A DNA stretch of 30,102 bases from a virus: positions 1 to 30,102 of the IMG/VR virus record IMGVR_UViG_3300009169_000065; one strand, given 5' to 3'. Below, piece after piece: positions 10,853-28,222 of the stretch. Below the pieces are notes generated by a model. It saw only the letters and a list, made by a program, of their open reading frames with translations. It ran no database searches and was not told where the DNA came from. Within the stretch, counting starts at the first letter, position 1, and each line of letters begins with the position of its first letter. Made by a program: the position numbers and the translations under genes.

Positions 10853-12445
10853 CTACCTCTCCCCCATCGGCACGACGGTAATGCGGTTGCGGCCCACGCG
10901 CCAGCGGGCATTGAGGCCGACGTAGCGGAGCCTGATCTCGCGGCCCCTCGCGCCCGTGGTGGGCACGGGGCGGGTCAGGCTGTAGGGGCCGTAGAGGCGC
11001 TCCGGCTCCGCCGGCGACGGGAAGTCCTGCCCGATGATGTAAAGCTGCGCCCCGGTGTCGGGATCGCTGGCCAGTTCCTTGGGGCTGGGGATGCCGTAGG
11101 CCTGCTGCGTGACGGGGTCCAGCTGGACGCTGTCGGGCGTGAGGTCGGGGTAGAAGAACTGCACCGCCATCTGGCGGCCACCCGCGCCCAGTTCGAGGGG
11201 GCCCGTCTCGATGAACGCGACGTTCGGCGGCGGCACCGCCACGCCCGGGAGGTCGTGGTTGTAGAGCGCGCCATCCGCGCCGACGTAGACGGGCGTCTGG
11301 GAGGTGCCCGGCGGGACGCCGGTCGTGCGTTCGAGGTCGCCCCAAATCCAGTGGCCCTCGGCGTAGTTCAGGGCCATGTACTTGTCGCACTCGGTGCCGT
11401 CGGCGCTCTGGAAGAACCACCAGATTTCGCGGAAGGCGGGCTGCTCCACCGCGACCATCTTGCTGATCTCGGTCGAGGACATGTTGCCCCTGATCCAGTC
11501 CTCGATGTCGGTGTCCAGCTTTCGGACGGTGCCGTCGTATGTCCACATGCCGCCACGGCCAAACCAGTATGCGCGGCCCCCGGCGACGGCGACCGAGTTC
11601 GGCGCGATGCATCCGCAGTTCTGGCCGAGGGGCTCGAACCCGTAGATGAAGGGCGCGCCGATGTAGCGGCCCACCCACGCATCCTCGGACGACAGGATCA
11701 GTATCTCGCGGCCCACCTGAATGATCGCCTGAAGTTCACCCTGACCCGCCAGAACCTGCGACCCTGCGGTGTTGGTAATCTCTGGCGTCCACTCATTGAA
11801 GTCCTCGCTGTTGCTCCACTCGACCAGACGCGGCTGGCGCTTGATCGTCATCACGATCCGCTCGGACGTGACCAGCACACCCTGCGCGTCCTCCGGTGCG
11901 TTGGTGATGGCGACCGCCACGGGGTCGCCGGGCGTCCAGCTGTAGAGGGGGCCATCGTCGCGGAAGGCGGCGATCAGGATTTCCCCGAAGAGGGTGAAGG
12001 ACCAGTTCGCCACCTGATCGAGGGGGACGCCGGAGGCCGTGCGGGCGGTGCCGTAGAGTTCACGGCCATAGCGCCCGACGCCGTAGCCGACGATGTACTG
12101 GCTGTTCTTGTTGCCGCCCGTGAAGCCTGCGGGGGTGATGTTGGTCACCACGCCCGCAGAACTGACCGAGTAGAGGCCGAGGTTGGTGCCGATCACCATG
12201 CGGCGCGCGGCGTCGTTCGACGCCCATGAGATCGCGTTGCGGGCGGCCTCCAGTTCGGGGTCGTCAAAGATCGGCGGGATCGGCGTACCCTCCGCGTCGG
12301 TGCGGCGCTGCCAGCCACCAACGGGCCGCGCGAAGCCGTTCACGAAGCGCATGAGGTTGCCCGCGCCGTAGCGGCCTGCGGCGGAGTAGGGGGTTCCGTT
12401 CCCGAAGAAGCCGGGCGGGAGGACGATGGGCAGCGTCTCGGCCAT
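10853..12445 (-). CDS. P22 gp10-like DNA-stabilising / tail hub protein
   Basis: 530 residues with the repetitive strand-turn pattern of the podophage beta-propeller hub family (P22 gp10-like packaged-DNA stabilisation proteins). Visible pieces include AGNLMRFVNGFARPVGGWQR at the N terminus, SQYIVGYGVGRYG, FGEILIAAFRDDGPLYSW, and the typical centre FIYGFEPLGQNCGCIAPNSV followed by AYWFGRGGMWTYDG. Such proteins close the channel below the adaptor ring and join tail fibres to the tail. The neighbouring fibre genes, the adaptor at 16800 and the P22-type portal all fit this reading. The protein is complete. It is not far from ordinary family length. The assignment rests on pattern, not on an alignment. 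Confidence 0.75.
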   Translation of the reverse strand: MAETLPIVLPPGFFGNGTPYSAAGRYGAGNLMRFVNGFARPVGGWQRRTDAEGTPIPPIFDDPELEAARNAISWASNDAARRMVIGTNLGLYSVSSAGVVTNITPAGFTGGNKNSQYIVGYGVGRYGRELYGTARTASGVPLDQVANWSFTLFGEILIAAFRDDGPLYSWTPGDPVAVAITNAPEDAQGVLVTSERIVMTIKRQPRLVEWSNSEDFNEWTPEITNTAGSQVLAGQGELQAIIQVGREILILSSEDAWVGRYIGAPFIYGFEPLGQNCGCIAPNSVAVAGGRAYWFGRGGMWTYDGTVRKLDTDIEDWIRGNMSSTEISKMVAVEQPAFREIWWFFQSADGTECDKYMALNYAEGHWIWGDLERTTGVPPGTSQTPVYVGADGALYNHDLPGVAVPPPNVAFIETGPLELGAGGRQMAVQFFYPDLTPDSVQLDPVTQQAYGIPSPKELASDPDTGAQLYIIGQDFPSPAEPERLYGPYSLTRPVPTTGARGREIRLRYVGLNARWRVGRNRITVVPMGER

Positions 12446-12758: not shown

Positions 12759-13394
12759 TCAGGACATGCGGCGGATGTAGGCGAGGGCGTAGTAGTATGG
12801 CGTGATGTCCACCGAGGCGGCACCAGCCGAGGCGACCTCGCCGGAGATGGTGTGGGTGTGGTCTGGGGCATCGGCCAAGGTAATCCCGGTCTGCCTCGAT
12901 GCCGTGGTGTCCGCCTCCGAGGAGGCGCGGATCGCGGTGCGGCTGCCCGTCTCGATGTTGGCGGTGCCCGTGGTGGTGATGCCGTTGTCGGTGAAGGTGT
13001 GGGTGTGGCCGGGGTCGTTGACGGTGTGGCCGTGCGCGCCGCCGGCTGCGGCGGCGAGGGTGCCGGGGCCGTGCGTGTGGGCTGGCACCTCGGTGATCGC
13101 GTTGCGGCCTCCGGTGCTGCCGAGGGCCTTGGTGTCGCTGGCCCCGACGATGAAGCGGTCGCGGAGGTCGGGGGTGCCGTTGCTGCCGTCGCAGATCGCC
13201 CAGTTCGCTGGCAGGTTCGCGGCGTCGCCACTGAACATCGAGATGCCGCCGACGGGCACCAGAGCGAGGGACAGCGCCTTCATGATGCTGTCCACGCTGT
13301 CCCAGTTGGCGTTCGACTTGTCGCCCCAAGTGTCGTCGGAGGCACCGGGCTCTGGCTTGATCAGGCCGTAGTTCGGGGTGGTTGTATCAGCCAT
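12759..13394 (-). CDS. Tail-collar-domain fibre protein with HxH metal motifs
   Basis: 211 residues. The N terminus (TTTPNYGLIKPEPGASDDTW, then NANWDSVDSIM) is a fibre-type attachment segment. The middle has the phage tail-collar signature: PANWAICDGSNGTPDLRDRF followed by IVGAS. The distal half carries at least four H-x-H patterns (HTH in PAHTHGPG, HGH, HTHTF, HTHTI), like the metal-binding needle of T4 long tail fibre tips, and ends ITPYYYALAYIRRMS. It should form a trimeric fibre with histidine-coordinated metal ions and be a candidate receptor-contact protein. The ribosome site is GAAGAAGGACTG. It neighbours other fibre genes. Confidence 0.88.
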   Translation of the reverse strand: MADTTTPNYGLIKPEPGASDDTWGDKSNANWDSVDSIMKALSLALVPVGGISMFSGDAANLPANWAICDGSNGTPDLRDRFIVGASDTKALGSTGGRNAITEVPAHTHGPGTLAAAAGGAHGHTVNDPGHTHTFTDNGITTTGTANIETGSRTAIRASSEADTTASRQTGITLADAPDHTHTISGEVASAGAASVDITPYYYALAYIRRMS

Positions 13395-13397
13395 TGG

Positions 13398-13643
13398 TCA
13401 GTCCTTCTTCGGGGTCCAGACGTCGGAGGCGTCGAGGCGAGGTGCCCACACATCTACCACATCCGCGCGCGGGGCCCAACTGCCCTGCGCGGCAAGCTGC
13501 GGTGCCCACCCGTCTAGCACATCATCTCGCGGCACCCAACTGTCCTGACCATCGGTGGCCGGGGCCCAGATGTCGCTGATCGAGCCCGCCGCGAAGAGGT
13601 GCGCCGAGAGCGGCGCACCCGCGAGGGGGTTAAGGCCGAGCAT
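13398..13643 (-). CDS. Trp-Ala-Pro decapeptide-repeat protein
   Basis: 81 residues from ATG 13643, chosen because it follows the lipoprotein gene's end by overlap. Residues 1-22 form a non-repetitive head (LGLNPLAGAPLSAHLFAAG). The remainder is built almost wholly from six tandem units about ten residues long, each centred on W-[AVT]-P: DIWAP, DSWVP, DGWAP, GSWAP, DVWAP, DVWTP. Codons differ between units while the Trp-x-Pro register is kept, indicating selection on protein. There is no named family that I know. It sits among tail-fibre genes, so a solvent-exposed fibre accessory or carbohydrate-contact role is possible. Confidence 0.75.
   Translation of the reverse strand: MLGLNPLAGAPLSAHLFAAGSISDIWAPATDGQDSWVPRDDVLDGWAPQLAAQGSWAPRADVVDVWAPRLDASDVWTPKKD
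13401..13574 (-). repeat. Six tandem 30-bp units encoding W-[AVT]-P decapeptides
   Basis: Unit boundaries on the - strand: 13574-13545, 13544-13515, 13514-13485, 13484-13455, 13454-13425, and a partial unit 13424-13401. The spacing of the Trp codons is exactly 30 bases throughout. The units share the core but are diverged at third positions, so they are not a recent slippage product. Confidence 0.9.
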
Positions 13644-13773
13644 TGATCGACCCCACGGCGATCTCGCCACGGCAGCCGATGATGCAGGACGGCTGCTTGA
13701 TGTTCGGGCTGTTGGTCTGGGTGACCGGCCCGCAGGCAGCGACGAAGGCGAAGAGCATAAGGAGACGGGTCAC
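13630..13773 (-). CDS. 47-residue predicted lipoprotein inside the fibre cluster
   Basis: Read directly from the DNA. GTG at 13773 overlaps the upstream gene's stop as GTGA, giving MTRLLMLFAFVAACGPV and ending at TAA 13630. The positively charged start, short hydrophobic core and VAAC lipobox (C14) form a classic type II signal peptide. The mature part is only 34 residues, holds two more cysteines (C30, C34, in SCIIGC) and has no obvious repeat. An outer-membrane lipoprotein of this size could be an outer spanin, a superinfection-exclusion lipoprotein of the T5 Llp kind, or something new. No inner spanin partner is seen nearby. The 3' end overlaps the next start by 14 nt. Confidence 0.75.
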   Translation of the reverse strand: MTRLLMLFAFVAACGPVTQTNSPNIKQPSCIIGCRGEIAVGSINARP

Positions 13774-14273
13774 TGGATGAACTCCCTCCATTGGGACACG
13801 GTGGGCGTAGTTGTAGACGATGTGACCGAGTAAAACCAGCGCGGAGGGATTAGGGCGATGGTGCCGTTCCCGGTGAGGGCGCTGTCATAGCGGGAACGGC
13901 GCGCCAGATTGATCAGGGCGTCGGCTGTGGGGCCGCCCTGTATCTGGATGTTGATGGGTCCGCTGATGGTCATGGCCATCGTCTTGTCGTAGGGGTTCTG
14001 GTAGACGGTCCCGAGGACGCGGGCCGTGCCCAGAAGGTCTGGGCTGCCGTCGAAGGGCGACCCACCCGCCCCGCCGTTCGCGTCGATGACGGCCTTGGTG
14101 GTGAGGGGCGACATCGCGAGGTCGGTGGCGATGCCCGCCAGCGCCTCCGCCTCCGAGGCGAAGATCACCGCCACGCCCTTCATGATCCAGACGCTGCCGT
14201 TCCAGATGAAGGTGCTGCCGTCGCTGGTGAACTCTTGGCCGACCGCCGGGGTGCTGGGGAAGTTGATTGCCAT
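13770..14273 (-). CDS. Fibre-type paralogue 3 of 3 (NFPS-GQ family)
   Basis: 167 residues from ATG 14273, which overlaps the previous stop as TGATG and has GGAG upstream; the GTG at 14282 lacks such spacing. It starts MAINFPSTPAVGQEFTSDG, then STFIWNGSVWIMKG, the same opening as the two genes upstream. Residues 43-61 (EAEALAGIATDLAMSPLTT) match them as well. After that the sequence diverges into strand-rich C-terminal domains ending with RWFYSVTSSTTTPTVSQWRE. The family opening resembles short modules in phage fibres that read 'P-GQ-x-W/F-W-x-G-W'. Probably a tail-fibre or receptor-binding accessory protein. Confidence 0.8.
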   Translation of the reverse strand: MAINFPSTPAVGQEFTSDGSTFIWNGSVWIMKGVAVIFASEAEALAGIATDLAMSPLTTKAVIDANGGAGGSPFDGSPDLLGTARVLGTVYQNPYDKTMAMTISGPINIQIQGGPTADALINLARRSRYDSALTGNGTIALIPPRWFYSVTSSTTTPTVSQWREFIQ

Positions 14274-14773
14274 CAGCGCCACTCCGTCCAGCGGGTCAGG
14301 ATCGGGTTCCTCGCCCGATCAAGACGATACCACCAGCCCGTCGGAACGATGAACTGGAACGAACTGTCGCCGTTCCGGCGGACGCCGATGCTGGCATAGA
14401 CGGTGCGGTTGGCGGGGTTCGCGTCGCCGATCAGGGGGGTGGCGTTGCTGTCTTCGGTGGAGTTCCCCGCCAGATTGATGGCGACCAGCATAGGGTAGCC
14501 GACGGTGTTCTGGTAGTTGACCGCGAAGGACCGGGTCACGACGGTCGGCACACCGACGGGCGACCCGGGGGTGACGGGGTTCGCGTCGGATGCCGCCTTC
14601 AGGGTGCCGGGTGTCATCACGCGATCCGCCGCGAAGCCAGCCACAGCCTCAGCGTCGGTCGCCCACTGCAGGCTGCTGCGGACGTACCAGACGACGCCGC
14701 TCCAGACGAAGGTCAGGCCGTCGCTGGTGTACTCTTGGCCGACGGTGGGTGCGCTGGGGAAGTTCAGGCTCAA
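14273..14773 (-). CDS. Fibre-type paralogue 2 of 3, TTG start
   Basis: 166 residues. Alignment with its neighbours places the start at TTG 14773 (overlap TTGA with the previous stop), since the protein then begins MSLNFPSAPTVGQEYTSDGL like the other two; GTGGAG lies upstream. Longer readings have no ribosome site and lie in the previous gene. The conserved opening continues TFVWSGVVWYVRS and ATDAEAVAGFAADRVMTPGT. The C-terminal half is different (VVTRSFAVNYQNTVGYPMLV, later TGWWYRLDRARNPILTRWTE), but the Trp-rich ending has a common layout with paralogue 3. A rare start suggests a lower initiation rate, perhaps set by coupling. Confidence 0.8.
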   Translation of the reverse strand: MSLNFPSAPTVGQEYTSDGLTFVWSGVVWYVRSSLQWATDAEAVAGFAADRVMTPGTLKAASDANPVTPGSPVGVPTVVTRSFAVNYQNTVGYPMLVAINLAGNSTEDSNATPLIGDANPANRTVYASIGVRRNGDSSFQFIVPTGWWYRLDRARNPILTRWTEWR

Positions 14774-15270
14774 GGCTGATACTCCACGCAGAAACTGATC
14801 TCGTAGCTGGCGCTGTCCGCGACAAACCACGACCAGCCGACGGGCACGATGAAGAAGGCCCCCCGCAGGACAGACGCGCCGCCGGTGTTGTCGGTGGCGA
14901 TGTTGATCCACGTCCCGCCCACGGGACGCAGGTAGAGGTTCCACGTCGCGGCGGCGAGGAACCAGATGCCGAGCGAGACGAGGATGGGGGCGTCGAAGGG
15001 GTTCGCGTACTCGACGTTGATCAGCCGCTCCGCAGACACGTCTACGGGGGCCTTCTGGAAGTAGGCACCGCCCACGGGCAGCGCGGCCTTGGTGGTGAAG
15101 GGCGACGTCGCCACATCGTCGCGGACGCCCGCGATGGCCTCCGCCTCGGTGGCGTAGACGATGTTGGAGGCGTCCATCACCACCCACAGGCTGCCGTTCC
15201 AGACGAAGGTTGCGCCCTCCGCCTGATAGACTTGGCCCGGGACGGGGGCGCTGGGGAAGTTGATTGCCAT
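14770..15270 (-). CDS. Fibre-type paralogue 1 of 3
   Basis: 166 residues, first of the triplet. It starts MAINFPSAPVPGQVYQAEGA followed by TFVWNGSLWVVMD and TEAEAIAGVRDDVATSPFTT, matching the other two copies over roughly the first 65 residues. The remaining 100 residues are strand-rich and unique in sequence (LINVEYANPFDAPILVSLG, ending FVADSASYEISFCVEYQP). The 'NxxNPFD' segment corresponds to NPYD in copy 3 and to NTVG in copy 2. It lies 3 nt after the main tail fibre, with which it probably shares transcription and assembly. Confidence 0.8.
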   Translation of the reverse strand: MAINFPSAPVPGQVYQAEGATFVWNGSLWVVMDASNIVYATEAEAIAGVRDDVATSPFTTKAALPVGGAYFQKAPVDVSAERLINVEYANPFDAPILVSLGIWFLAAATWNLYLRPVGGTWINIATDNTGGASVLRGAFFIVPVGWSWFVADSASYEISFCVEYQP

Positions 15271-15273
15271 GCG

Positions 15274-16803
15274 TCAGGGCCCCAGAAGGGCTTCGAGGGC
15301 CGCCAGCCGCGCCTCAAGGTCGTTGACCTTGTTGGTGAGGGCGACGACCGCCGCCTCGCTGCCGCCAGACGTCTGCACCCACTGCCCGCCGTCCGCGTCC
15401 TGATACCAGACGAAGAGGCCGATGGGGGAGGCGGTCTTGAACCACAGCTGGCCCTGACTGGGGGTCGCGGGCGCGGCGTCGCCGACGGTGGTGGCGGGTG
15501 GGACAGAGCCCACCTGCATGTAGCGGACGTCGCCATGCTCTCGGGTGACGACGCTGGTGGCCCGGGCCAGCGATCCGCCCTTGGCGATGGTGTCCTCGAA
15601 TGTCGCCGGATAGCGGGCGTCGGAGCCGTCGGGGTCGTAGTAGGCGATGTTCAGGAGACCGGCGCGATCTGCCGAGGCATATGCGCGCTCGAAGTAGAGG
15701 AGTGCTTGCGTGATCCCCGCCGCGTTGCGGAAACTCAGGGTGGGGTTACCATCGGAGCGCAGCTGCGCCTGCCCCATGATCACCGCGCCGCCAGTTCCCG
15801 TGACCAGCGTCCCGCTGCTGCCCTTGAGGGTGACCGTCCCGCTCGGCGCGAGAGACCATATCTCCACGTCGTTGTGGCGGAATGTCAGGGCACCTGTCTG
15901 GGTGGGGGTGGCCCGAAGCCTCCAGTCCCACGCGGCGTCCCCGGCGTTGCTGCGGATGATGAAGTCGAGGATGCTGTCCGAGGCCCTCGCGCGCAGGATC
16001 AACGGGGCGAGAACGTTCGGGTTCACCGTCAGGGCACCCGTCAAGGTGCCGCCGACCAGCTGGAGGTAGCGGGCGTCGGCCTCGCCCTCGGTGATGCCGC
16101 CGGTGCCACTGTTCTCGTCCACATACTTCTTGGTGGCGGCGTGGAGGTCGGAAGTGGGCGCGGCATGCAGGGTCAGGAAGCCCGTCAGGGTGCCGCCACC
16201 GAGGGAAAGCTTTCCGTTGATCGAGGTCTGGAGGGCGGCGTCGGCTGCGGCGAAGTCATTGCGGATCGAGGTGTCGGCTGCCGCAAAGTCGTCACGGATC
16301 GAAGCGTCGGCTGCGGCGAACTCACCACGAACCGCCGTCCCGAGGGCGTCCACATACTGCTTGGGCGCGGCATGCAGCAGGGCGGTGGGGCTCGCGGACA
16401 GGGTCAGGAAGCCCGTCATCGTGCCACCAGCCTTCAGCAGGTAGTTCGGTAGCGCCGCCGCGATGGCGTCCACGTCGGCTGCGACCGCCGCCACGTCATC
16501 CGGCTGCGCGATGTCGATGCTGGCCGCCGTCAGGAAGACCGTCGCGCTGCCCGTCAGGACGATCAGGGTGCCTGTGCTGGATTGCACGACGTTCCGGGTC
16601 AGGCCATTGGTGTTCGCGTCGAAGAGGCCCCAGCCCAGTTCCCATGCGCCGCCCTCCTCGATGACGTAGCGCACCGTCGCGCCGCTGGGCACACCAGCCG
16701 CCGTGGGCGACTGGTAGCCCTTCAGGGGGCTGCCCAGAACGAGGGGGTCCGTCCCCACCGTCTTGGTGGAGACGAAGACCCGGTCGGCGAGGAAGACCCT
16801 CAT
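15274..16803 (-). CDS. Main tail fibre protein
   Basis: 509 residues from ATG 16803 (ATGA overlap with the adaptor stop; an upstream reading has no support). The N-terminal ~95 residues are a virion-attachment domain common in phage fibres (LADRVFVSTKTVGTDPLVLG, then VRYVIEEGGAWELGWGLFD and LTRNVVQSSTG). Next come fibre repeats of the type GGTMTGFLTL...HAAPKQYVD (copies near residues 150, 218 and 265), interrupted by a three-unit hendecad coiled coil. The middle is strand-rich. The end holds a short module PSQGQLWFKTASPIGLFVWY that resembles the opening of the three paralogues downstream, and a final heptad helix (LTNKVNDLEARLAALEALLG) suited to trimerisation. Confidence 0.9.
   Translation of the reverse strand: MRVFLADRVFVSTKTVGTDPLVLGSPLKGYQSPTAAGVPSGATVRYVIEEGGAWELGWGLFDANTNGLTRNVVQSSTGTLIVLTGSATVFLTAASIDIAQPDDVAAVAADVDAIAAALPNYLLKAGGTMTGFLTLSASPTALLHAAPKQYVDALGTAVRGEFAAADASIRDDFAAADTSIRNDFAAADAALQTSINGKLSLGGGTLTGFLTLHAAPTSDLHAATKKYVDENSGTGGITEGEADARYLQLVGGTLTGALTVNPNVLAPLILRARASDSILDFIIRSNAGDAAWDWRLRATPTQTGALTFRHNDVEIWSLAPSGTVTLKGSSGTLVTGTGGAVIMGQAQLRSDGNPTLSFRNAAGITQALLYFERAYASADRAGLLNIAYYDPDGSDARYPATFEDTIAKGGSLARATSVVTREHGDVRYMQVGSVPPATTVGDAAPATPSQGQLWFKTASPIGLFVWYQDADGGQWVQTSGGSEAAVVALTNKVNDLEARLAALEALLGP
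16228..16326 (-). repeat. Three 33-bp units encoding hendecad coiled-coil repeats
   Basis: Units at 16326-16294, 16293-16261 and 16260-16228 encode GEFAAADASIR, DDFAAADTSIR and NDFAAADAALQ. Eleven residues equal three helical turns, the hendecad period of straight or right-handed coiled coils. The units are highly similar in DNA as well, so copy number could change by recombination and alter fibre length. Confidence 0.9.
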
Positions 16804-17414
16804 GCGACGCCCCCGTAGGTGATCCGCTGCGGCGAGCCGGTGTTCTTGCGGTTCGCGTTCTCGTCCAGCGCGGACTGCAGCGCGGCCCCGTAAGCACCCA
16901 TCCACACCTGCAGTCGGTCATCCTCCCGCAGGAAGGGCGCGGCATGCTTCAGGGCGCAGTAGGCGTAGACGTCGAGGTAGTTGTCGGCCATCCAGCTGGC
17001 GTCGGTCGCCTTGAAGTCTGGGAGGTTGGCGTAGTAGACCATCGAGACGTCCACCGGGGCCGAGATCGAGTAGGGGCCGATCAGCCGGATCAGGTTGTTG
17101 GAGACGGTGAAGACGGGCCTGAACTGGCCGGCGGCCATCGCCTCCTCCCGCGCGAACTCAAGCGGCGAGAGGTAGGTCAGGGGACCGATGCCAGCCATGC
17201 TCAGGTTCCGCATCTCGCGGTAGTCCAGAGGCGTGGTGAGGATAGTGTCGGTGGCCTGCGCGTCGGCGGTGATCGTGCGATCCTCCACCTTGAAGACGCG
17301 GTTCAGTTCCGCATCCGCCATCTTGATCAGGCTGTCGAGGTTGGCGATCAGGACGGTGTCGCCATCACGCCAGAGGAAGGTCGTCAGGAACGCCTTGAAG
17401 TCTGCGTAGGTCAA
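16800..17414 (-). CDS. Head-tail adaptor (connector) protein, TTG start
   Basis: 204 residues. The only believable start is TTG 17414, with GGAGG eight bases upstream; no ATG or GTG fits the conserved beginning TYADFKAFLTTFLWRDGDTV. This is followed by LIKMADAELNRVFKVEDRTI and a mixed region with LDYREMRNLSM and VSMVYYANLP. The ending carries an aromatic helix DNYLDVYAYCALKHAAPFLR. The pattern 'YAxF-xFL-x-R-D ... LIxxAExxLNR' is that of podophage adaptor proteins that bind below the portal ring (P22 gp4-like position). It is located between head genes and the fibre genes, as expected. The TTG start probably tunes its dosage to the 12 copies needed. Confidence 0.82.
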   Translation of the reverse strand: MTYADFKAFLTTFLWRDGDTVLIANLDSLIKMADAELNRVFKVEDRTITADAQATDTILTTPLDYREMRNLSMAGIGPLTYLSPLEFAREEAMAAGQFRPVFTVSNNLIRLIGPYSISAPVDVSMVYYANLPDFKATDASWMADNYLDVYAYCALKHAAPFLREDDRLQVWMGAYGAALQSALDENANRKNTGSPQRITYGGVA

Positions 17415-23406: not shown

Positions 23407-25993
23407 TGCTGTCCACCATCTGCGCGTCCACCCTCTGGGTGGTCGGCGACATCATGAACGACCGCTGATCGGAACCAGTCTTTGCGCCCTTGGCGCGGCG
23501 CTCGTTGAAGAAGTCGCGCCAGATCAACTCACCCGGGATGCGTCCCGTGCCCAGCTTGCCGAGGTAATCCCCCGCCAGCTGGGTGTCGTAGGACTTGTGG
23601 GCGCGCAGGTTGCCGAGTTCTCCCGGGCCGAGCATCTTTCCGGTGGGGTCCACCGCACCCATCGTCAGGCCGGTGTCGAAGGGGTTGGCATGCACCAGCC
23701 GGGGATCGGTGATCCCGAAGCGCGCCGCCGCGATGCTGGGGAAGCCCGCCTTCCGCATCGCGGCGCTCTCCATCGCCAGCATCGCCGCGCGGCGGTTGGT
23801 GCCCGACAGGCCCCGCAGGCGATCATGCGCCCCGGGGCTAAGGATGCCCGGCCACTCCGCATCAACAGGCTTCCTCACCCCATCGACAATCGTGTCGGGG
23901 GTTCCCTCGCGCATCAGCTTGTCGAAGGCTTCCGCCCCCTCCTTGGTGATCTTGGAGGGGTCGAACTGCCCCATGACCGCGTCGGTCATCATGGTCGAGA
24001 AGTCGCCCGAGGGGGCGGCCATCGAGGTGTAGGCCAAGATCGGCGTGTCGCCCCTCTCGGCGATGTCGCGGGCGGCCTTGGCCTTCGGGGCCAGCGCCTT
24101 GCGCTCCGACGCCCATATGCCCGTGTCGGGCTCCCGCATGAAGTCTGCGCCACCCTCCAGCCGCACCGGGCTGGTCAGGGGCTGCCCGTTCAGGGCCTCA
24201 AGCACCCCGCCGGCAGCCGTGCGGTCGCCGAAGGCGGGGATCAGGGTGGCTTTGCCCTCCCAGTCCTCGATGCTGAACGGCTTCTCCGGCACCAGCGCGC
24301 CGGTGGGGGACACCGTGGCGCTCATGTCGGCGAGAGGCATCTCCAGCTTGATGTTCGACCCCTGCCACCACATGCGCGGATCGCGAGCGATTGCCCCGAG
24401 TTCGTCGCCCGCGAAAGCTTTCAGGGCGTCCTCGCCGGTGTCGGCCAGCGCCCGGCCCATCGAACGGCCCGTGGCCCCCATCGGGAAAGCCTCAAGCCCC
24501 GCCATGCCGAGGCTCGACAGGGCCTCGCCAGCCGATCCGACCCGCTCCAACGCGGTCTTGCCCGGGGCGAACGCCTCGCCCGAGGCGACCATGCTGTCTT
24601 GCAGCGACCCGACCGGGTTCGGCATGGCCAGCGCCAGCCGCTCGGGGATGCCCGTACCGCCGAGGTAGTAGTTCAGGGCCTCGTCGATGCCTGCGGCGGC
24701 GCGATCCCGCAGGTTCCGGGTGTCGGGCGCGGCCTCTGGGGCCGGAGCCGGCATCAGGTCGAGGATGCTGGGGGCGTTGCGCGGATCGCCCTCGGCGTAG
24801 CCGCCCGTGACCGGGCCGCCGGGTTCGCGCTTCGGGGCGTTCGCCACGAAGTCGTTGATGCTGCCCAGCAGCTTGGTCTGGAGGTCCTCCGGGGGTGCGG
24901 CTGCGGCGTCGGCCTGACCGCCCGGGAGGGCCGCCGCGCCGAAGGTGAGGCCGACGGGTGCGCCGATGCCCGCCATGAGGTTCGGCAGGTGCTTCAGCTG
25001 GGGGTGGTTCCACGCGGCGACATCGCGCAGGACCGCATCGCGGCCACCGCGCTCCGTCAGGGCGATATTGCTGACCGAGCCCTTGTCCTCGACCTCGTTA
25101 CGGTAGGGGATGTTCGTGAAACCGAAGTCGGTGCCCAGCTTCTCGCCAAACTCCGGGGCCGTCGCTTGGTTGGCGGCCTCGTTCCGCATCAGCCGCAGGA
25201 AGTTGTTCGCCTCGCCCTCGCGGTGCCAGACGTCGGGGTTCTCGGCCACCGCCCGCTCGGCTGACGCCAGCATGTCGCGGCTTGCCCGCGACCCGACGGG
25301 GTAAGTCTGCGCGAAGGCCAGCGCCTCGGTGGGTGTGAGGGGCTTCGAGGTGTCCAGCAGCAGTTCGCGGGTGTGCTGCGCGCCGACGCCGACGCCGCGC
25401 TCCATCGCCGCCTGCTCGGTGCCCATGTGGGTGCCGACACGGTCGAAGACCGCCTGCCCGCTGTCCTTGGTCATGCGAGGGTCGAAGCGCGAGAAGCGTT
25501 CCGGGGCCTTGGTGGCGTGGTACTGCGGCTCCGGGTTCTGCAGGAAGGGGGCGCGCTTCTCACCCAGCGCATAGGGCAGCCCACCCTCGCGCTCGGCCTT
25601 CTCGAAGAGTTCGGGCGTGACCTGCTTGCCGAGGTTGTTCTCCAGCAGCCGCTTCAGGGCGTTTGTCGCATCCCCGCCACTTTTGGTCGCAAAGGGCAGC
25701 CCGAAGATGTCGTCGGTGAAGGGTAGCATCGGGTCTTCGTCGCCCGGCCCCATCGCGAGGTTATCGACGGGTCGGATGCCGCCCTCGGGGAGGGGAGACC
25801 AGACCTGCGGGACGTCGTAGCCGTCGAGGCCGGTCGCCTTGGCATAGGCGTTCGCGGTCGCAGCATCGTTGAAGAACGGGAACGTGGTGACGCCGTGGGG
25901 GTTCGGGTTCTGCGACACCCCCGCCATCAGGTCGTCAACGCTCTTCAGCCCGAGGGTGTCGAGCAGCTTGCGGATCGCGACGCCGGAGACCAT
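23375..25993 (-). CDS. Large polyvalent protein with ADP-ribosyltransferase-like domain
   Basis: 872 residues. Residues about 155-315 look like the ART domain of phage 'polyvalent' proteins: QYHATKAPERFSRFDPRM with H159, GTHMGTEQAAMERG (G187-T-H), and the final YRNEVEDKGSVSNIALTE with the acidic pair E300/E302. A low-complexity Pro/Ala linker (residues about 365-430) follows. The C-terminal 350 residues form a second conserved region seen in podophage large proteins (EGGADFMREPDTGIWASERK, then MAAPSGDFSTMM and SGTNRRAAMLAMESAAMRKA, RFGITDPRLV). Such proteins are thought to be packaged and injected to modify host targets. The start lies three bases after the stop of the small basic gene, a weakly recognised start that probably needs coupling. 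ART activity is inferred from the pattern. Confidence 0.75.
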   Translation of the reverse strand: MVSGVAIRKLLDTLGLKSVDDLMAGVSQNPNPHGVTTFPFFNDAATANAYAKATGLDGYDVPQVWSPLPEGGIRPVDNLAMGPGDEDPMLPFTDDIFGLPFATKSGGDATNALKRLLENNLGKQVTPELFEKAEREGGLPYALGEKRAPFLQNPEPQYHATKAPERFSRFDPRMTKDSGQAVFDRVGTHMGTEQAAMERGVGVGAQHTRELLLDTSKPLTPTEALAFAQTYPVGSRASRDMLASAERAVAENPDVWHREGEANNFLRLMRNEAANQATAPEFGEKLGTDFGFTNIPYRNEVEDKGSVSNIALTERGGRDAVLRDVAAWNHPQLKHLPNLMAGIGAPVGLTFGAAALPGGQADAAAAPPEDLQTKLLGSINDFVANAPKREPGGPVTGGYAEGDPRNAPSILDLMPAPAPEAAPDTRNLRDRAAAGIDEALNYYLGGTGIPERLALAMPNPVGSLQDSMVASGEAFAPGKTALERVGSAGEALSSLGMAGLEAFPMGATGRSMGRALADTGEDALKAFAGDELGAIARDPRMWWQGSNIKLEMPLADMSATVSPTGALVPEKPFSIEDWEGKATLIPAFGDRTAAGGVLEALNGQPLTSPVRLEGGADFMREPDTGIWASERKALAPKAKAARDIAERGDTPILAYTSMAAPSGDFSTMMTDAVMGQFDPSKITKEGAEAFDKLMREGTPDTIVDGVRKPVDAEWPGILSPGAHDRLRGLSGTNRRAAMLAMESAAMRKAGFPSIAAARFGITDPRLVHANPFDTGLTMGAVDPTGKMLGPGELGNLRAHKSYDTQLAGDYLGKLGTGRIPGELIWRDFFNERRAKGAKTGSDQRSFMMSPTTQRVDAQMVDSIMRWLEANQP

Positions 25994-26217: not shown

Positions 26218-27657
26218 TCAGAACCCCTCCAGCCGCCTCGGGTGCGGTTTGCTCCACGGCAGCGTTGACCAAGTGCTGGACCCTGCCGCGCCGGACGCGA
26301 TCCCGCCGTCGGCGGCGAAAGTCAGACACCGCGCGTCGGCGATGTTCGGAGACGCGACCCCGCGCTGCTTCATCTGCGCCTTGCTCTCGACGTCGGTCTT
26401 GCCCGTCGAGGTGATGATCATGCCCGGCTCGCAGAGTTCGTTCACCAGCTTCTCGGCCAGATTGCTGTCGCAGGAGATCAGCACGTCGCGGCGCTCGAAC
26501 CACGCCCGCACCGCGAACCACAGTTCGGCGCGCAGTCGCGGGAAGCGGTCGCGCATCGCGGGGCTCTCCGCGACGTTGACGTCCATCACTGGCAGCCCCA
26601 TCTGCCGCAGCCGGTCAGCCACACCCGCGCCGACGCCGATGGCGTCCACGCAGATCAGCCGTGGCCGCTCGGCGGGGGAGCAGTTCTGCCACCGCTCGAA
26701 GACCCAGCCCACGACCCGCATGGTGTCGGCGTAGTGCAGTTCCTTGGCGAAGGTGACCACGTTCCCGCAGCGGACGATGAAGCCCGTGGGGTCGCCGCCG
26801 CGACCGGGGTCAACGCCCCAGATCGCCTCATCCGTGACCGCCACCACGTCCCGACCGATGGCCGGCTCCGCCAGTTCGCGGGGGATGACGCTGTCCTCGT
26901 CGTTCTCTGGGAACTCGCCGAGGACACGGATGCGCCACTGGTTCGAGTTCTCGGTGTAGGTCCGCCGCATCTCCTCGATGAAGTCTGGCGTCACGCGGGT
27001 GCTGTCGGAGCAGCTGACGCGGCGGGTCCACCAGAGGTCCTTCAGGATCGTGTGGGTGCGGTAGAACAGCCCCTTGGCCCGCGTGGGGTTGCCGATCAGG
27101 ATGAAGATCGCGCCTGCGGTGGACATCGTCCCCCGCGCGGCCTCGTAGACGGGCTCTGGGATGCCCGACGCCTCGTCCGCGATCACCATCACGTTCGCCG
27201 CGTGGATGCCCTGCAGCGCCTCGGGGTTCTCGATCCGCGCCGTCCGGTAGCTGATGAAGTTGTTGTCGGGGTCTTCCGCCAGCACGATCCGGTTGGTCTG
27301 CATCGTGATCAGGTCCGCGAGCCCGTACTTCAGCCGCCCCACCAGAAGCTTGGTCTCTGGGATCAGGCCGTCCTTCAGCTGGCTGCTGGAGGGGCTGGTC
27401 ACCACGATCTTGGTGTCGCGGGTGAACAGGAGCATGTGGAGCGAGCAGATCGCCGCGAAGAACGTCTTCCCGACGCCGTGTCCCGACCGGATGCTGATCC
27501 GGTCCTCGCCCGCGTCCAGCGCCATCAGCGTGTCGCGCTGCCACTTCTCCAGCACGATGGGGTGGCCGCCGCTCTCAAGGCAGTTCTCCACGAAGAACAC
27601 GCGGTTGTGCATCGCGCGGTCGAGGATCGCATCCACTGAGAGCGGCGCATCCAGCAT
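26218..27657 (-). CDS. Terminase large subunit
   Basis: 479 residues from ATG 27657 (overlapping the previous stop as TGATG). The ATPase has Walker A SGHGVGKT (K64), Walker B VMVIADEAS (D161, E162) and the coupling motif region IFILIGNP. The C-terminal RNase-H-like nuclease has GVDPGRGGDPTG (D283), ICVDAIGVG (D338) and NIADARCLT (D441), the three acidic residues expected. It cuts the replicated concatemer and pumps DNA through the portal. The classical small subunit has not been identified; the gene at 28209 is a candidate by position. A reading extended to 27753 would cover the membrane-peptide gene and lacks a start site. Confidence 0.95.
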   Translation of the reverse strand: MLDAPLSVDAILDRAMHNRVFFVENCLESGGHPIVLEKWQRDTLMALDAGEDRISIRSGHGVGKTFFAAICSLHMLLFTRDTKIVVTSPSSSQLKDGLIPETKLLVGRLKYGLADLITMQTNRIVLAEDPDNNFISYRTARIENPEALQGIHAANVMVIADEASGIPEPVYEAARGTMSTAGAIFILIGNPTRAKGLFYRTHTILKDLWWTRRVSCSDSTRVTPDFIEEMRRTYTENSNQWRIRVLGEFPENDEDSVIPRELAEPAIGRDVVAVTDEAIWGVDPGRGGDPTGFIVRCGNVVTFAKELHYADTMRVVGWVFERWQNCSPAERPRLICVDAIGVGAGVADRLRQMGLPVMDVNVAESPAMRDRFPRLRAELWFAVRAWFERRDVLISCDSNLAEKLVNELCEPGMIITSTGKTDVESKAQMKQRGVASPNIADARCLTFAADGGIASGAAGSSTWSTLPWSKPHPRRLEGF

Positions 27658-27755
27658 CAGCGGCGCATCGCCTTCGCGAAGAACAGCGCCAGAACGACCA
27701 GCGCCGCCGATGCGCCGATGGCCATGCCCAGAAGCACCAGAAACACGTCCCACAT
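27657..27755 (-). CDS. 32-residue single-span membrane peptide
   Basis: Read from the DNA between resolvase and terminase. ATG 27755 overlaps the resolvase stop (TGATG), and TGA 27659-27657 overlaps the terminase start the same way; GGAGG is ten bases upstream. It is nearly all one membrane span: MWDVFLVLLGMAIGASAALV, then VLALFFAKAMRR with positive charge at the C-terminal end, so an N-out/C-in topology is expected. The span holds G and A residues suited to helix packing. It may be a small holin-like or pinholin-type peptide, an anchor for a terminase partner, or a toxin-like peptide. Nothing in the neighbourhood settles this. Confidence 0.7.
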   Translation of the reverse strand: MWDVFLVLLGMAIGASAALVVLALFFAKAMRR

Positions 27756-28222
27756 CACTTGCTGCCCTCCGTTGCGAAGTACCACAGGGCGATGGCGTCA
27801 GCCTCGTCCTCGGTCTTCGGTTTCAGCCCACGCGCCTCGATGGCCTTCACCATCTCGGTCTTGCTCGCGTTGCCCTTGCCCGTCACATGCTTCTTGATCG
27901 TGCCGACTGGCACCCCCTCGTAGGGGATGCCGCGACCTTCGCACTCAGCCGTCAGGATGGCCATCAGGCCGCCGTAGACGTGGGCCGCGTCCACGCCCAT
28001 GTGCCGCCGCACCTCCTCGAAGACCACCAGATCGACGTCGATGTCCATGAGACTGTCCAGTTCCTTTCGGAACCGGACGAAGCGCATGCCGCCGCCGGAG
28101 AAGCGTCCGGCCCTGAGGTCGAGTGTGCCCGAGGCCATCGGCTGGTGGCCGCTGCCGAGGGCCCAGCCGCACTTGGTGCCGAGGTCGAACGCCAGAACGG
28201 TGTGGGGATTACTGGGCGGCAT
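27755..28222 (-). CDS. RuvC-like Holliday junction resolvase (phage type)
   Basis: 155 residues with the RuvC/RNase-H fold: TVLAFDLGTKCGWAL with D13, strand DVDLVVFEEV (E69/E70), and the C-terminal TEDEADAIALWYFA with D139/D142. Basic helices (VGTIKKHVTGKGNASKTEMV) fit DNA binding. Phages use such enzymes to trim branched DNA before packaging, consistent with being two genes upstream of terminase. It has a weak ribosome site and a 14-nt overlap with the previous gene, so it depends on coupling. Confidence 0.9.
   Translation of the reverse strand: MPPSNPHTVLAFDLGTKCGWALGSGHQPMASGTLDLRAGRFSGGGMRFVRFRKELDSLMDIDVDLVVFEEVRRHMGVDAAHVYGGLMAILTAECEGRGIPYEGVPVGTIKKHVTGKGNASKTEMVKAIEARGLKPKTEDEADAIALWYFATEGSK

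Follow-up and report, generated by a model that had tools for sequence, protein, structure and literature searches.

A 47-codon gene on the minus strand of a 30,102-base virus record (the window, that is, the whole stretch of DNA analysed here; GC content of ~67%) encodes a small predicted lipoprotein between fibre genes, and the slot that holds it is the lysis slot in related phages. The frame is confirmed as a real gene. Its product is tentatively predicted to work like an o-spanin, as a lysis lipoprotein orphaned in a 30-kb fragment, a reading with somewhat less than an even chance of being right.

A small gene that fills a gap between fibre genes

The minus strand of the window carries structural genes of the podovirus type (terminase, portal, scaffold, major capsid, tail tubular, fibres, stabilization protein and ejection-type proteins), and the plus strand carries DNA polymerase, exonuclease and related genes. 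Judging by related contigs, which measure about 39–41 kb, this fragment probably lacks roughly a quarter of the genome. The slot of interest is bordered upstream by a gene for a tail tubular-type protein (16800..17414, minus strand; phrog_2941, 6.1e-28) and downstream by one for a virion stabilization-type protein (10853..12445, minus; phrog_3287, 6.6e-55; annotated as ‘phage stabilization protein’ in MW202879). Between these borders, all on the minus strand, lie a 543-aa fibre-like ORF with weak matches to tail-fibre PHROGs (fib543, 15274..16905; the true start is probably later than the longest start used for these coordinates), three fibre paralogues recognized by alignment with one another (fibA, 14770..15270; fibB, 14273..14776; fibC, 13770..14273, with 36% and 33% identity to the other two), the lipoprotein gene (13630..13773), a gene with an ATG start for an 81-aa protein with tandem W(A/V/T)P repeats (13398..13643) and a tail-collar-type fibre gene (12759..13394; phrog_8469, 3.6e-22; Pfam Collar, 0.0007, which is below the Pfam cut-off). 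The 81-aa protein contains about six of these repeats and resembles the tails found at the C-termini of longer fibre proteins of relatives; in L020, L017 and L023, the match is 39% over a short stretch only.

The lipoprotein frame runs on the minus strand from a GTG at 13773 to a TAA stop at 13630 and translates as VTRLLMLFAFVAACGPVTQTNSPNIKQPSCIIGCRGEIAVGSINARP (47 aa), and the plus strand at the same positions yields no such protein. The GTG overlaps the stop of fibC by 4 nt (GTGA), a ribosome-binding sequence (GGAGGGAG, 13782..13789) places GGGAG 8 nt upstream of the GTG, and the ATG of the W-repeat frame (13643, same strand) lies 14 nt inside the end of the lipoprotein gene, which thus takes up the whole space between its two fibre neighbours and runs into each of them. 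A simple scan found no promoter for the gene or near it. The preliminary description had read the frame, its length of 47 residues and the overlap with the preceding gene correctly, and its lipoprotein call and its placement of the gene in the late operon hold.

The codon fit of the lipoprotein frame is +0.168 per codon, whereas none of the other five frames exceeds −0.12, and the GC content at third codon positions is 0.85. When the gene body was dinucleotide-shuffled 20,000 times with the start fixed, the frame stayed open over 46 codons in 11 971 (60%), so that, at ~67% GC, openness alone says little; a lipobox signal from the same start appeared in only four of the shuffles. Even with ~25 gene junctions in the window, well under one such chance case is to be expected, we infer. 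A lipobox ORF somewhere in 30 kb is by itself not significant: a lipobox-ORF detector returned 46 antisense matches in 1.09 Mb of relatives, which corresponds to an expectation of ~2.5 for both strands of 30 kb, although in the window the ORF at 13630–13773 is the only one that it calls. Because look-alikes are common elsewhere, the weight of the gene call is borne by position, and the fit of the start, the ribosome site and the gap is significant. That the frame is a chance open spacer that resembles a lipoprotein is accordingly very improbable: the high GC content and the frequency of lipobox look-alikes in non-coding frames speak for it, and the rarity of the signal among the shuffles, the best codon fit of the six frames, the GTGA coupling, the ribosome site and the exact filling of the gap speak against it.

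Features of the predicted lipoprotein

The predicted signal peptide comprises residues 1–13 (MTRLLMLFAFVAA; 13735..13773, minus), of which residues 3–13 form a helix in the AF2 model, and is followed by the predicted lipid-attachment cysteine, residue 14, in the lipobox VAAC (codon at 13732..13734, minus; motif match). The PROSITE lipoprotein rule places the lipid cysteine at positions 15–35, so that the candidate Cys14 is one residue short. The mature part is hydrophilic, as long as previously described (34 residues), and contains two cysteines beyond the lipid cysteine, Cys17 and Cys21, in the motif CIIGC (13672..13686, minus). There is no C-terminal transmembrane (TM) segment: the strongest hydrophobic stretch begins at residue 7 of a 53-aa version of the protein and corresponds to the signal. 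Apart from the signal helix, the AF2 model shows no fold (mean pLDDT of 54, one sequence, low confidence). The protein had been said to lack the proline-rich look of Rz1; this is true in relative terms, with four prolines among the 34 mature residues versus 10 of 40 reported for lambda Rz1 (PMC5295617).

Searches for relatives

Searches for relatives of the lipoprotein gave none in viral contigs, none in phage records at E 10, and no match in Pfam or PHROGs at E 0.1, either to the Cor family (phrog_1119) or to any spanin family. The lone NCBIfam match was to NF038215 (lipoprotein; E 0.042, far below the cut-off), and 20 related records contained no relative, with three weak matches (E 0.4–1.1) that all fall in one bacterial genome. 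Many of the o-spanins covered by the 2018 survey are singletons (PMC6139136), so that the lack of similarity to a spanin family is weak evidence. Literature searches turned up no title that describes the gene, although it may still be in print.

The phage itself is also isolated. The stabilization protein, fibC and portal yielded no relatives in viral contigs, and the best capsid match had 60% identity (80 of 468 loci kept), which implies that there is no close relative of the phage in the collections searched. A genome scan yielded seven capsid loci, and the three that were viewed (L171, L174 and L176) have no convincing lipoprotein downstream. Two candidates were discarded, namely a 42-aa lipobox-like ORF in L171, which looks spurious, and an annotated 47-aa ORF in MW202879 that has the same length and a similar place but is not a lipoprotein. 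Given that no relatives of the lipoprotein were found, the slot between the tail tubular and stabilization genes was compared across relatives instead.

The corresponding slot in related phages

Both border genes occur in order in 24 loci (19 contigs derived from the capsid search and 5 named phages). In 13 of these, the slot contains exactly one sense lipobox ORF of 35–120 aa; three such ORFs occur antisense in the 125 760 bases concerned. An upstream ORF of 66–86 aa with an N-terminal TM segment runs 4–107 nt into the lipoprotein gene in 12 of the 13; the exception, L039, has no overlapping TM partner, and its lipoprotein comes after an amidase. All 13 lipoproteins carry extra cysteines (two in nine loci, at a spacing of 16–39, and four in the other four), with mature parts of 42–65 aa. 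A lysis enzyme was matched by PHROGs in the slot of all 11 loci scanned (ten plus L033; L021 and L035 were left out); in L015, a tail lysozyme ranks first, ahead of endolysins. Among the five slot partners scanned, those of L004 and L020 match the Rz-like spanin family phrog_1026, that of L033 matches phrog_462 (‘lipoprotein’) and families of unknown function, and no PHROG matches those of L015 or L031. The 13 loci include look-alike pairs (L009/L015, L018/L028, L020/L021 and L033/L035), which leaves perhaps eight or nine that are independent.

Against an o-spanin-like role, the remaining 11 loci lack a lipobox ORF in this interval. Some of these, e.g. phiM5, MW202879, MW202711 and MW202496, have lysis genes there all the same; in phiM5, an endolysin, a holin and a ‘putative spanin’ immediately precede the stabilization gene. 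L012, L080 (both judged by reading the ORFs) and Octadecabacter DB virus 2 have no lysis genes in the slot, and in the latter, a lysozyme gene and an overlapping TM/lipoprotein pair are located after the capsid gene. In that genome (L169, MW805364.1), the annotation of gp33 uses an internal start and gives a 51-aa ORF; in its longer form (23616–23852), the frame encodes a 78-aa lipoprotein that overlaps the TM protein gp32 beside the lysozyme and is probably an overlooked o-spanin.

Thus, the slot that holds the lipoprotein gene in the window is the lysis slot in relatives. The location beside receptor-binding genes had been taken to favour the shielding of new virions or of the infected cell; with a lipobox ORF in 13 of the 24 loci and a TM partner for 12 of these 13, this location matches the lysis slot. 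In phages that carry the lysis cassette among their fibre genes, proximity to receptor-binding genes is weak evidence of receptor blocking, and comparing the slot across relatives is a safer way to read the location than relying on the names of the neighbouring genes.

The fibre cluster leads to the same slot function. An alignment of the three paralogues used as the query detected 31 loci, among which L180, a siphovirus-like record, has a fib543-like gene followed by three tandem paralogues; the contig ends 15 codons into the next gene. Exact DNA search identified a sibling contig of this record, L217, where a 65-aa ORF with two hydrophobic segments and no PHROG match overlaps the stop of the last paralogue, and an M15-type endolysin (phrog_894, 2.9e-37) comes next. 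The 65-aa ORF reads as holin-like by its shape. In L182, an M15 endolysin of the same PHROG lies ~3 kb past the fibre trio. The gene order in L217 makes the site directly after the last fibre paralogue the lysis site in the nearest fibre-cluster relative, and this runs counter to the earlier preference for shielding over a spanin. The tandem fibre trio (13770–15270, minus) is common to this podovirus and the siphovirus-like L180/L214, which suggests that the fibre cluster has been exchanged between unlike phages.

A possible lysis lipoprotein family in the same slot

The slot lipoproteins of L033, L035, L028 and L018 belong to an unannotated family, denoted CGP[VI], for which tblastn detected 136 viral loci. 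The lipoprotein is nearly invariant, with 71–75 aa and four extra cysteines (L033:15158–15373, L035, L028, L018 and L089–L168); further members are found in CRP-810 (L178:5001–5261) and CRP-207 (L179). In L018, L028, L033, L035 and CRP-810, the gene overlaps or abuts an upstream gene for a 77–80-aa TM/coiled-coil protein, and a lysozyme or endolysin gene lies downstream. The lipoprotein has no PHROG match and, in CRP-810, is unannotated between gp54 and gp53; together with the TM/coiled-coil protein, it possibly forms an unrecognized spanin pair. The structure prediction for the family, with a mean pLDDT of 49, was set aside.

The lipoprotein of the window resembles this family in its slot, in the short signal and in the mature start CGPVT, which is shared with some members, and differs in the cysteine motif (C-x3-C as opposed to C-x6-C). 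In the family search, it ranked second among non-members (E 0.92). Homology was rejected: the mature part scored 3.5 bits, rank 83 of the 4580 reported for 5000 shuffles and the real one, the likeness ends after CGPVT, and the members from the Roseobacter phages CRP-810 and CRP-207 have no GPVT.

A putative lysis role and its alternatives

If the protein is an o-spanin-like lysis lipoprotein, its synthesis would be translationally coupled to expression of the tail genes; after export, cleavage ahead of Cys14 and lipidation, the Lol factors would insert it into the outer membrane, in the inner leaflet. The 34-residue tail of the protein, probably unstructured and perhaps paired via disulfides of Cys17 and Cys21, would contact an inner-membrane partner at lysis and so help to disrupt the outer membrane. 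The partner would be encoded in the missing part of the genome or by the host; otherwise, the gene could be a surviving piece of a relocated lysis cassette.

Relatives have lysis genes in this slot, but none were recognized in the present fragment. No endolysin or holin was matched among the scanned proteins of the 30 kb, and no i-spanin-like TM ORF occurs near the lipoprotein gene on the late strand, so that the earlier remark that there is no spanin partner nearby stands within this fragment. The sole small TM ORF found on the late strand (27657–27785, minus; 42 aa) lies before the terminase gene, between it and a RuvC-like gene; it consists of one TM segment with almost no tail outside the membrane and has no family match. 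The largest separation of i- and o-spanin genes reported in the 2018 survey is ~1 kb (PMC6139136). Because no partner, holin or endolysin is near, the o-spanin-like reading is held only tentatively. The relocated cassette of Octadecabacter DB virus 2 has its own lipoprotein, so that a displaced cassette in this phage may well have its own o-spanin, too. Lone phage lipoproteins are a recognized puzzle: according to the same survey, 31 genomes have one with no linked i-spanin (PMC6139136).

The strict choice between an outer spanin and a receptor blocker that was offered originally is too narrow. It is quite conceivable, although less probable than a lysis role, that the gene encodes some other small outer-membrane lipoprotein with no part in lysis or exclusion (acting on the envelope, as an accessory of virion release, or as a neutral member of the fibre cluster) or is a decaying remnant of a lysis cassette. 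Its orphan status in viral contigs, phage records, PHROGs, Pfam and the 20 related records fits this explanation, as does the weak codon fit, which is at the low end of the range for 15 large genes of the window (0.139–0.464), whereas the intact frame, the ribosome site and the overlaps at both ends are unlike decay.

Receptor blocking or superinfection exclusion in the manner of T5 Llp and Cor is rather unlikely. In this case, the lipoprotein would act from the periplasm at a late stage of infection, binding the outer-membrane receptor that the phage itself uses, and would thus spare released virions from loss on infected cells and debris. The similarity to these proteins lies in the small size and in adjoining receptor-binding or fibre genes: the gene has fibC on one side and the W-repeat and collar genes on the other; T5 llp, for its part, is described as adjacent to and downstream of the gene for the receptor-binding protein pb5 (PMC9586334). 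The gene of the window has no lysis partner nearby and, unlike the slot lipoproteins of relatives with their lysis genes, stands by itself, so that it may have been acquired as an additional gene. Several points weigh against receptor blocking: there is no sequence match to Cor or any other PHROG, no separate promoter was found, no fold is predicted, and relatives use the slot for lysis. Furthermore, the mature part is far shorter, and its Cys17 and Cys21 would not allow the long-range disulfide (Cys11–Cys58) that is reported to hold the Llp fold (PMC9586334). Less probable still is a CxxxC lipoprotein with no relationship to Llp or Cor and far smaller than either, which, inserted in the fibre cluster and co-translated with it, would mask or close the receptor of the neighbouring fibres and thereby protect new virions.

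Comparison with known spanins

Unimolecular spanins of the T1 gp11 type share the N-terminal lipobox with the lipoprotein of the window but differ from it in possessing a C-terminal TM segment; in the 2018 survey, a periplasmic cysteine was recorded in none of 58 u-spanins (PMC6139136), whereas this protein has two. The differences from the o-spanins are the lack of a nearby i-spanin, holin or endolysin and, with respect to lambda Rz1, fewer prolines; compared with the slot lipoproteins of relatives, the mature part is shorter, and the cysteine spacing is 4, outside the range of the nine that also have two extra cysteines. The likeness to o-spanins such as lambda Rz1, which is described as largely unstructured with 40 mature residues (PMC5295617), and T4 PseT.2 consists in a short, late, largely unstructured predicted lipoprotein with periplasmic cysteines, of which two is the commonest number among the o-spanins surveyed (240 of 526; PMC6139136), and it extends to the slot lipoproteins of relatives, which pair with TM proteins that are Rz-like in two of the five cases scanned.
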